DNA from: a virus
IMG/VR virus record: IMGVR_UViG_3300028589_000033
Coordinates: 1-28,805 of that record
Direction: 5' to 3' (one strand)
Length of the DNA: 28,805 bases
This document shows positions 3,357-6,611 of the stretch, piece by piece; position 1 is the first letter of the stretch, and every line of letters begins with the position of its first letter. Under the pieces are notes generated by a model, which saw only the letters and a program-made list of their open reading frames with translations, was not told the origin of the DNA and made no database searches. The position numbers and the translations under genes are program-made.

Positions 3357-6300
3357 TTATGCTGCTCTTCGTTGTTGCATGATACGTTTGTTGCGTTCGA
3401 TGCGAGCTTCATCCATGATGGAGTCGATGGTCATCATGCGAGTTTGTTCTGGCGGTAGGAGTTTCACGAGCTTGCGAATCTCTGCTTCCAGTCGCAGTGC
3501 CAACAAGTTATCGTTGGTGGCCATCAGTTCATCGGTGAGCTTAGTGACCTGAGCGCGAATCTTGTTGATCATGTGAACCACGTGAGGCTCCATCTGAACA
3601 ACGTTGCCTTTGGTCTCGTTCATCAAGTTACGCACATCCGTCAGAGCAATGCCAGGTGGGATGTTGTACAGGGACTTGTTTTGTCCCAGCTTAATGAACC
3701 AGAAGCTCAATAGCCATGCGATTACCAAGTCGTCGTGCATCTTGGTATCGTGGTCAATCCGGTCGGCTTTCGTTCTGAGGTTGATCAGTTCGTCCGCCAG
3801 CTTCGGATATGCCAGACCGTAGCCTGTCATACCGACCGCTTCCATGATGAGACCGTACAAGGTTTCCCGGCTGGTCTTGGTGGTGAGGAACCCGAAGTGC
3901 TGCTTGTACTTCAAGTAGAAGTTCTTGCTGCGAGTACCGAACGAAGTCCGACGAACCTCTTCGTACTCTTTCTCGTGGTTCACTGTGTCCTGATACACTT
4001 GGTTGTAAATCCGCGTGAACGGATCCATGCCCTTAGCAGGCAGAGTAATCAACAGGCTGTCGATCATGTGGTGAGCGTAGTTACGCTCGATGATCAGCAT
4101 GCTGTTCTTGATTACGTCCAACAGGTCGACCAGAATCGATGTCACGTCATCCAGATACGTCAATGGATAACGCCCCACCCCTACTACCTTACCAGTCCGC
4201 ATACTGCGCACGATGATGGTACAGGCGTCCTTGTTGATTGCCGACGAGGTATCACACCCGATCAGGAAGAAGTCATTGTACTCCTTCTTGCTCATCTCCA
4301 TTAGCTCTTGCTGTGTGACGAAGAAGTCCATATACAAGTTGCTATCCTTGTACTCCTTACTCCACACAATCTCCCGCTTCACGTTGTTAATCGCTTCACG
4401 GGTTTGGTCATCGAACAGACGGTTCTCGCCATCCTCCACCCACATCAACAACAAGTCGATCTTCGCCTTAGCAAGGCTGAGACCCAGCTCATCGATAACC
4501 GACTTCACCCAGTCCTTGTCTTTACCCAGTTGCAGGTAGTTGTAGACCATGCTCACTTGTGGCGAGGTGGTCTCTTTAGGCGACGCTTTGATCAAGCGCG
4601 ACTTAAGGTGGGATTCGCTGAAGCTGTCGAAGAACTTCTCACGCCACTCGGTAGCAGACATGAGTTTCTTGAACATGAAGTCGCCACTGTCGTGCAATGT
4701 CGTGTTCGGGGTTGTAATGTGACTGATTCCATACGGCAGACCCATGTCACGGCAGTTCGCCATCTCCGTCAGTGCCGAAGGTGCGCAACCGTCGATGATC
4801 ACATCAATGAACTTGATGTACGCACTTTCGTCGTACTTCGTGGTCCCTACCCGCAAACCACGACCCAAGTCACCGGCCGCCTCGATACCCTGCTGTGGAA
4901 CGTTGATGTACAGGGTGTTCGTCTTTGCCTCACCAAAGGCTTTGTACGTCAGGCTGGTACCCGCGTCTTTGTCCTTGTAGGTGGAGTTGATCAGATACTT
5001 TGGAATCGAGTTACGGATCGTCTTGATGGCGTTGATGAACTGTGCCCGGTTATCCGACTTCAGGGTAATCAGATGAGAGGTATACCCCCGTCCCATGATG
5101 TACGTCAGCCAGAAGTTGATCACCTGTACAGCCACGGTGTTGTGGGTCACCAGGAAATCATCGGTCAAGTAGAGGTGCTCCATTGCATCCACTTCGATGC
5201 AGGTGCATTCATCATCCCAAACGAACTTGATGTCCTTGATGTACAGACCGTTGGTGTCACGCAGGGGGCGATCATCAGGCTTGGTCTTGAAGTACGGGAT
5301 GGTTTTCGGCAGGGTAATGTTAATCCCGTTCTTCGCCTTCTTCGCTGTACCCCCCAGACCACGCACCAGATATTGCAGTTGGTTTACAAGCGTGCCCTTA
5401 CACGGCAAATAAACGTTATCCTTCCCTACCACACCCTTAGAGTCCAGAAACGCTTGTAAGACGCTTATACGGTCTTCTAGAGCCCCTTCCAGATACGTTG
5501 GCGGTAACCCGTGGGCTTTATCGACACTCAACGGCAAAGTATCGGTCCGAGCAAGCAGTCGACCTTGGAAAAGTATCAACCCTTCAGGCAGTTGTTTCTC
5601 GACCAGCTCACGTTGCTCAGGGGTCAGGTGCAGTTCAATGCAACCTTCCTTAGACGTGCCCGCCAACATCAACCCCATGAGGTAAGGATTGATTTTGTGG
5701 TTCTGGCTAACTCCTTCCTCCGGTTCGATCAAAGGCAGTTGGAGGGTAGCACCCTTCTTCAACAGCTCGATCATGTCGGCGGTAGAGTAATCACCCCACA
5801 GACCACGACCATTGATCTTGTCCTCAGAGTTCTTCACCGTCCACAGGTGCTCGGCGCCAGCCTCAGTCTTACGACCGTCACTGGTGGTCACCCGGTACAG
5901 ACGCTTAACTCCCTGAGGGTGAACCCCGATGACGTTAGCAGGTTTGCCGAAGCGATCGATAACCTGATCACCCACCACCAGATCCCCGATACGTTTCCAG
6001 GTATCCTGAGGAGTAATGTTCTTGGTCTTCTTCGGAACTACACGCACTTTACTGCCGTTGCTCTGAAGCTTGCCTTGCTGCCGTGGCATGATCATGTACG
6101 TGGTGATGTGGTTCAGGTACGTCCAGATGAAACTGATGTTACCCCGGTTGGCCAAGAAAGGACGGTTGGGGTTCAAGCGGCAGATCTCACGCAGGAAGTA
6201 CCAGAAGTTGGTCTGGGTTTCATACATGATCATCGAGATCGCGGTATCAGTCAGGTCGGGATCGAAAGGATCGACACCTTGCAGCAGTGGGTTGTTCAAC

Positions 6301-6611
6301 TGCAACAGGAAGTAGTAGTTCTTGATCCCCTGCCGACGGAACACTTCTGCAGTACGCAGGAAACTGGTGTTCTTGGTCTTCAGATCAGGGGCGGCTTTGT
6401 ACAGGTGAAAGTCTTTCAGGAACCGGACAGTCTTGATGCTGTACAGGCTGTCTTCCTTGTAATGCGCCAGCAAGGTTTCGTCTTCAGTCCTTGCTTGAGA
6501 ATCGATCCGCTGTTTGCGATCATCGATTAACTCTTTAGGAAGATTGGTAGTCCCCAAGTATTCGAACAGTTTCTTGGAGAATTCCAGAATGCTAGAATCT
6601 GTGGAATCCAT
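3357..6611 (-). CDS. terL: Terminase large subunit (packaging ATPase/nuclease) interrupted by an intein
   Basis: The motor that cuts concatemeric phage DNA and pumps it into the prohead. The 1084-codon frame contains a 310-residue intein (182-491). Removing it joins MPRQQGK to TVAVQ and restores the Walker A motif RQQGKT. The remainder, about 774 residues, is a normal size for a jumbo-phage terminase. Walker B is visible as TKYDES (acidic pair 594-595) and a coupling motif as ISHITTPNT (629-637). The C-terminal RNase H-like nuclease has its acidic residues in IGCDTSS (D787), IIERN (E842) and MHDDLV (D960/D961). The ATG at 6611 is preceded by AGG at about eight bases. It is transcribed away from the 573-aa gene, after a palindromic hairpin at 6647-6678, so a separate promoter is possible; a TATG lies on this strand at 6639-6642. 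Without splicing, the ATPase would be inactive. Confidence 0.95.
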   Translation of the reverse strand: MDSTDSSILEFSKKLFEYLGTTNLPKELIDDRKQRIDSQARTEDETLLAHYKEDSLYSIKTVRFLKDFHLYKAAPDLKTKNTSFLRTAEVFRRQGIKNYYFLLQLNNPLLQGVDPFDPDLTDTAISMIMYETQTNFWYFLREICRLNPNRPFLANRGNISFIWTYLNHITTYMIMPRQQGKLQSNGSKVRVVPKKTKNITPQDTWKRIGDLVVGDQVIDRFGKPANVIGVHPQGVKRLYRVTTSDGRKTEAGAEHLWTVKNSEDKINGRGLWGDYSTADMIELLKKGATLQLPLIEPEEGVSQNHKINPYLMGLMLAGTSKEGCIELHLTPEQRELVEKQLPEGLILFQGRLLARTDTLPLSVDKAHGLPPTYLEGALEDRISVLQAFLDSKGVVGKDNVYLPCKGTLVNQLQYLVRGLGGTAKKAKNGINITLPKTIPYFKTKPDDRPLRDTNGLYIKDIKFVWDDECTCIEVDAMEHLYLTDDFLVTHNTVAVQVINFWLTYIMGRGYTSHLITLKSDNRAQFINAIKTIRNSIPKYLINSTYKDKDAGTSLTYKAFGEAKTNTLYINVPQQGIEAAGDLGRGLRVGTTKYDESAYIKFIDVIIDGCAPSALTEMANCRDMGLPYGISHITTPNTTLHDSGDFMFKKLMSATEWREKFFDSFSESHLKSRLIKASPKETTSPQVSMVYNYLQLGKDKDWVKSVIDELGLSLAKAKIDLLLMWVEDGENRLFDDQTREAINNVKREIVWSKEYKDSNLYMDFFVTQQELMEMSKKEYNDFFLIGCDTSSAINKDACTIIVRSMRTGKVVGVGRYPLTYLDDVTSILVDLLDVIKNSMLIIERNYAHHMIDSLLITLPAKGMDPFTRIYNQVYQDTVNHEKEYEEVRRTSFGTRSKNFYLKYKQHFGFLTTKTSRETLYGLIMEAVGMTGYGLAYPKLADELINLRTKADRIDHDTKMHDDLVIAWLLSFWFIKLGQNKSLYNIPPGIALTDVRNLMNETKGNVVQMEPHVVHMINKIRAQVTKLTDELMATNDNLLALRLEAEIRKLVKLLPPEQTRMMTIDSIMDEARIERNKRIMQQRRAA
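5139..6068 (-). other. Class 3-type intein with a degenerate LAGLIDADG endonuclease, inside TerL
   Basis: A protein-splicing element of 310 residues (TerL 182-491). The N-terminal block reads LQSNGSKVRV, which aligns with canonical blocks of the CFAKGTNVLM type but has Leu instead of Cys or Ser at position 1. Further splicing blocks are visible: IGDLVVGDQVI (208-218), SDGRKTEAGAEHLW (244-257) and the C-terminal CIEVDAMEHLYL...FLVTHN, followed by Thr as the +1 residue. Trp257 (two after the block B His), Cys471 (block F position 4) and Thr489 (before the penultimate His) form the WCT triplet that defines class 3 inteins, in which the block F Cys replaces the first-residue nucleophile. Between the splicing halves are two LAGLIDADG-like helices, YLMGLMLAGTS (310-320) and LQAFLDSKGV (385-394), with Gly and Lys where the catalytic Asp residues should be. 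Confidence 0.9.

Follow-up and report, generated by a model that had tools for sequence, protein, structure and literature searches.

The terminase gene and its insert

The window, that is, the whole stretch of 28,805 bases analysed, was a fragment of a virus contig. Judged from the genes on these 28.8 kb, it belonged to an Elvirus-like, phiKZ-related jumbo phage, with a large terminase subunit (TerL), a tail sheath, structural proteins and a multisubunit RNA polymerase. PHROG matches were obtained for the RNA polymerase beta subunit (5e-294) and the tail sheath (3.5e-200), and thymidylate kinase and several structural proteins matched PHROG families at very low E-values. Among the DNA of the phage collection, phage EL and EL-like phages came nearest, sharing about 72% identity with the window.

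The open reading frame at nt 3357–6611 (minus strand) encoded a TerL precursor of 1084 amino acids, a phiKZ-type large terminase containing an intein. The predicted protein was 69–70% identical to the TerL of phage EL over 100% of its length, and residues 33–984 matched the terminase large subunit family phrog_2 (7.4e-41), a match spanning both exteins. The intein, 310 amino acids long, occupied TerL residues 182–491 (nt 5139–6068, minus strand), codon 182 (Leu) beginning at nt 6068 and codon 491 (Asn) finishing at nt 5139. Upstream of it lay the N-extein (residues 1–181, nt 6069–6611, minus strand), which was aligned to intein-free TerLs and ended in the Walker A half RQQGK; downstream lay the C-extein (residues 492–1084, nt 3360–5138, minus strand), which, by the PHROG match and by comparison of filled and empty genes, comprised the remaining ATPase and the nuclease domain. 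The insert thus lay within Walker A (RQQGK|T), with junctions Lys181|Leu182 and Asn491|Thr492, and the first residue of the C-extein, Thr492 (+1), was the Walker A Thr itself.

The junctions were fixed by two independent intein-free relatives, which aligned without gaps to filled TerLs. TerL of Vibrio phage pTD1 reads ILPRQQGKTVTAQ (ILPRQQGK|TVTAQ), and in its congener phiKT1028 the insert lies exactly between K and T, a natural filled/empty pair; TerL of Kosakonia phage Kc263 reads LMPRQSGKTVGMQ (LMPRQSGK|TVGMQ) and was compared with filled TerLs of Klebsiella and Aeromonas phages. An earlier note, made from the letters of the window, had placed an intein at nt 5139–6068 in the TerL P-loop, and these empty sites show its splice points to be right to the base. 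Trp257, Cys471, Thr489, His490, Asn491 and Thr492 were likewise found where it had put them, and the junction expected in the mature protein, RQQGK-TVAVQ, was the one it had given.

Such inserts are overlooked by the Pfam intein model. When the complete TerL was scanned against Pfam and NCBIfam, nothing exceeded the cut-off, Hom_end_hint being the only family to appear (E 0.0027), and the window gave no match to the Pfam intein-splicing family. Several TerL genes of the group are also misnamed in public records. The RefSeq name 'DarB-like antirestriction' was observed on TerLs or helicases bearing class 3 inteins in N1M2, PDCC-1, PS1, Aphrodite1, YC, EFP01 and DAC15 and on EL gp166, and is probably a misannotation carried by the common intein.

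Class 3 signature and predicted splicing

The defining residues of class 3 inteins are Trp B:12, Cys F:4 and Thr G:5; these inteins lack a nucleophile at position 1, and Ser or Thr usually follows at +1 (PMC5222942, PMC5050341, PMC3196547). All of these residues were present in the window intein, as Trp76, Cys290, Thr308 and Thr+1 in intein numbering, with Leu1 at the start. The block A region, LQSNGSKV (nt 6045–6068, minus strand), was read from the sequence and its relatives; the other blocks were located by alignment, also on the minus strand. Block B contained H-L-W (TerL 255–257, nt 5841–5849), with the catalytic His (B:10) and the class 3 Trp (B:12), neither of which varied in an alignment of 68 class 3 inteins; block F, CTCIEV (nt 5190–5207), supplied the nucleophile Cys F:4 (TerL 471) and an extra Cys at F:2; block G read T-H-N|T (nt 5136–5147), with Thr G:5, His, the terminal Asn and the +1 Thr. 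Across the 33 distinct Elvirus-like TerL inteins, H(B:10), W(B:12), C(F:4), T(G:5), H and N did not vary. Position 1 in these was L, Q, M, P, Y, F or A and never Cys, Ser or Thr, most other class 3 inteins starting with Ala; a variable position 1 beside an invariant signature is expected of a mechanism in which residue 1 takes no part.

So that the grouping would not be driven by the signature itself, columns A:1, B:12, F:4 and G:5 were masked in a tree of the splicing blocks. The window intein fell within a clade of Elvirus-like TerL inteins (100/99) and was set apart, together with class 3, from six class 1 inteins by a branch with 98/98 support. This split is strong but imperfect, as the long-branched class 1 intein gp41-1 also stood with class 3. 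A PDB profile search gave its best matches to variants of gp41-1 and to two class 3 DnaB inteins, 6bs8 and 6rix, the class 3 inteins at about 1e-18. The AlphaFold model of the intein had a mean pLDDT of 93, and its splicing domain superposed on the M. smegmatis class 3 DnaB intein 6bs8 with Z 18.4 and 1.4 A over 123 residues; class 1 Hint domains superpose too, the Hint fold being common to all intein classes and alone not decisive for class. Thus the signature, the signature-masked tree and the structure support the assignment of the TerL insert as a class 3 intein. The earlier note had proposed this class from the Leu start and the WCT triplet, naming a profile search and a phylogeny as checks; the phylogeny agreed with it, with the caveat of gp41-1. 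Chance origin of the intein signal was excluded by the PHROG match across both exteins, by relatives of the intein in 510 phage records, by the PDB profile matches and by the model confidence.

In the chemistry described for the class 3 family, Cys F:4 attacks the N-terminal junction, the N-extein is transferred to the +1 residue, and Asn cyclises (PMC5222942, PMC7664689). By this chemistry, Cys290 would, after translation, attack the Lys181-Leu182 bond, aided by His74 and Thr308; the N-extein would be transferred to Thr492; and cyclisation of Asn310 would leave RQQGK joined to TVAVQ, with the ATP-binding loop restored. PMC6195587 cites the P-loop intein of P. horikoshii RadA as disrupting ATPase function; by this analogy, normal ATP binding would be denied to the unspliced motor, and TerL would be activated on splicing.

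A remnant LAGLIDADG endonuclease

Between blocks B and F, nt 5247–5825 (minus strand) encoded a remnant LAGLIDADG endonuclease domain, as indicated by a PI-SceI profile match, by Foldseek and VIA-align comparisons and by dN/dS. The whole AlphaFold model superposed on PI-SceI with Z 23.5 over 301 residues, so that the predicted LAGLIDADG fold is complete. An active enzyme of this type has two catalytic acids, one each in blocks C and E, and in the window intein the two positions held Gly and Lys. The first LAGLIDADG helix (block C, nt 5652–5687, minus strand) reads PYLMGLMLAGTS, versus a ...GDG ending elsewhere, and was aligned with PYLLGVLLGDGS among others; the second (block E, nt 5427–5462, minus strand) reads VLQAFLDSKGVV, ending in LDSKG versus ...DTDG, and was aligned with LLQGLMDTDGTA among others. 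From the absent acids, the endonuclease of the window intein is presumed dead, a loss that the earlier note overlooked. Both acids were kept in none of the 33 distinct Elvirus-like TerL inteins, versus 116 of 134 other class 3 inteins; 32 of the 33 had neither, and the one apparent acid lay in a gapped stretch of a single sequence (L046). The acid loss therefore spans the phage clade and is not peculiar to one contig.

Pooled dN/dS was 0.15 for the endonuclease remnant, 0.124 and 0.049 for the N- and C-terminal splicing blocks, and 0.057 and 0.065 for the N- and C-exteins, these being rough in absolute value, as they come from a simple pairwise count over 15 independent close pairs in which synonymous sites were partly saturated. 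The remnant is under purifying selection and far from neutral. A dead but folded endonuclease domain is known from PhoVMA, and in some inteins this domain aids splicing independently of cutting (PMC8966425); by analogy, the remnant is probably kept for its support of splicing, which is the simplest reading of a domain both dead and constrained.

Three other readings of the insert bear on class, splicing and mobility. A class 1 or class 2 identity, the first residue having been set wrongly, is suggested only by the unusual Leu at position 1, where Ala is the commonest start in other class 3 inteins, but the junction is set by the empty sites, no relative among the 33 has Cys, Ser or Thr there while W, C and T are invariant, and the masked tree contradicts it; class 1 inteins carry Cys, Ser or Thr at position 1, and we regard this reading as extremely improbable. 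A non-splicing intein, the gene being a dead or altered terminase, is very improbable: a decayed class 3 intein is known in Arth_1007 (PMC3196547), which is indirect evidence, whereas all catalytic splicing residues are conserved, the frames are open in all relatives, and extein dN/dS is about 0.06 in a gene of essential function. Continued homing by an active endonuclease would agree with the intact predicted fold and with the different intein alleles of close phages, but the replacement of the block C and E acids and the lack of either in nearly all relatives argue against it, and it too is very improbable. The phiKZ-type TerL very probably carries in its Walker A motif a class 3 intein that splices, has lost its nuclease, is immobile, passes mostly by vertical descent and is kept.

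Distribution, inheritance and retention

At the same site, the TerL intein was found in phage EL, Risingsunvirus, Tidunavirus and jumbo phages of Klebsiella and Aeromonas, dozens of jumbo phages in all. The intein of EL gp11 (NC_007623 / AJ697969) agrees with that of the window in gene, site, class 3 signature and acid loss, their diverged sequence (about 52% identity) being the only difference. The EL record annotates no intein feature in the gp11 TerL gene. InBase presumably listed inteins of EL ORF11 and ORF39, and the 2005 genome paper of EL reportedly mentioned inteins. No description of an EL-type TerL intein was found in the literature searched, which did not extend to Tori and Perler 2011 or the EL genome paper. 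The suggestion of the earlier note that the window intein would extend the range of class 3 to a phiKZ-like terminase is thus overtaken by EL and its many relatives, and its view of class 3 as a small group does not hold, with 310 confirmed stretches in a genome scan and at least 579 in a viral scan. A class 3 intein at a P-loop (M. smegmatis DnaBi1, PMC6195587) and phage TerL P-loop inteins (PMC5050341) have already been published. Class 3, P-loop, phage TerL and dead-endonuclease inteins are each known, and EL carries the very same intein; what is of interest is that a whole clade has retained class 3 inteins with dead endonucleases in the P-loops of its motors.

Several known inteins share parts of this arrangement. 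DnaBi1 of M. smegmatis (6bs8; PMC6195587) and DnaB1 of M. chimaera (6rix; PMC7664689) have the class 3 residues and a splicing fold like that of the window intein (Z about 18), and DnaBi1 is also inserted in the P-loop; unlike the window intein, both are bacterial DnaB mini-inteins without an endonuclease, and redox control is established on the DnaB side only. Mycobacteriophage inteins likewise reside in TerL, TerL1-a lying between Lys and Thr of Walker A and TerL1-c and -e grouping with class 3 DnaB-b inteins, but they belong to another terminase family and other phages, and the endonucleases of BAKA TerL1-b and Bethlehem TerL1-c tested active, whereas the acids of the window intein are lost (PMC5050341). 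In PhoVMA, too, the LAGLIDADG architecture is intact and the catalytic acids are gone; in contrast, PhoVMA is an archaeal VMA intein, not of class 3, and its splicing is independent of the dead domain (PMC8966425).

Nineteen large genomes were hand-picked from TerL matches found by extein patterns, so that the proportions are indicative only: the TerL intein was present in 18 of the 19, pTD1 being without it; a class 3 P-loop intein in the EL gp40-type helicase in 10; one in the EL gp166-type helicase in 14 (3 empty, 2 records unscorable); and the RNA polymerase beta intein (gp39), with both acids intact, in EL only. EL thus has four class 3 inteins, in TerL gp11, RNA polymerase beta gp39 and the helicases gp40 and gp166 (loci L253, NC_007623 44000–50500; L254, NC_007623 167500–171500; and L002). 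Judged by eye, the gp40- and gp166-type inteins have lost recognisable LAGLIDADG acid motifs. The TerL, gp166-type and gp40-type inteins grouped mainly by site, which suggests separate acquisitions; there was no support for one intein having been copied from motor to motor inside a genome, the three sets forming mainly separate groups.

Trees of the intein and of TerL had 15 of 29 splits in common, the conflicts lying mostly among close phages. Strict vertical inheritance was rejected on this count and because some close phages differ in endonuclease-remnant alleles; the intein was inherited mostly with the gene, plus some allele exchange between close phages. Near-identical TerL C-exteins with different remnant alleles were observed for L016 and L030 versus L015, L033, L044 and L047, and for L011 versus L009 and L041, which suggests exchange inside the intein.

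Under the homing-cycle model, fixation of an intein is followed by loss of its nuclease and then by shrinkage or loss of the intein. Here, dozens of diverged phages of one clade have lost the nuclease acids, yet in an essential motor gene they keep the intein with its domain at nearly full size. Close relatives that lack the intein can serve as controls, and the group offers a way to test whether dead inteins persist through some function or simply because they are difficult to remove. The LAGLIDADG domain would formerly have driven homing, both acids since having been lost across the group. The intein probably persists because only exact removal would be tolerated in an essential gene, imprecise loss killing the motor, and support of splicing by the remnant fold would be a second reason for retention.

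Alternatively, the intein may be domesticated, conditional splicing of TerL, for example by redox through Cys F:4 and Cys F:2, timing the packaging motor and so accounting for retention. The prevalence of the dead-nuclease TerL intein compared with the acid-intact beta intein of EL agrees with this, as does the purifying selection on the remnant, which would however be expected too if the remnant merely has to fold. Oxidation reversibly blocks the class 3 intein that M. smegmatis carries in the P-loop of DnaB (PMC6195587), and Cys F:2 occurred in 23 of 33 Elvirus-like TerL inteins versus 26 of 134 other class 3 inteins, a count uncorrected for relatedness in which 10 of the 33 lack this Cys. 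On the other side, the two helicase P-loop inteins of the same phages decay alike, as fits a general end stage of the homing cycle, and splicing was quick in the five phage terminase inteins that have been tested elsewhere (PMC5050341). Quick splicing of mycobacteriophage TerL inteins, among them Bethlehem TerL1-c and Gaia TerL1-e, whose sites that paper discusses with class 3 DnaB-b, also favours a TerL intein that splices. Nothing in the analysis supported such a packaging timer, which the earlier note had raised, and we consider it unlikely. Still more doubtful is the broader proposal that Elvirus-like phages domesticated independently acquired, endonuclease-dead class 3 inteins in TerL and two helicases as P-loop gates delaying ATPase activation. 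The TerL intein is most likely an autocatalytic, immobile and fixed element, with a regulatory role possible.

The Cys-x-Cys formed by F:2 and F:4 (nt 5190–5207) may be a site for redox control or a metal. Against a redox switch in the Elvirus-like TerL inteins stands the fact that the F:2 Cys is not universal among them.

Further inteins outside this set were observed in the scans. The annotated intein in TerL of Caulobacter phage phiCbK (L072, 1986–3008) starts with Pro and has Cys at F:4, Phe for Trp and Val for Thr; it is neither clearly class 1 nor fully class 3. A class 3 intein with the full WCT set at L225 (3001–4098) starts with Cys after GLGK and possibly has two candidate nucleophiles. 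At L273 (G031:C1:38000–41000), a 314-aa intein-like ORF, in which the final THN is replaced by TR-stop, had no recognisable helicase extein and is a possible relic or assembly fault. Many class 3 inteins on actinobacterial contigs (L076–L149) shared one site, MRGR|T, of an apparent PhoH-like protein. An actinobacterial RecA (L238) carried a class 1 intein (Cys1) at the Lys|Thr position of Walker A, indicating that this site is a hotspot for both classes.
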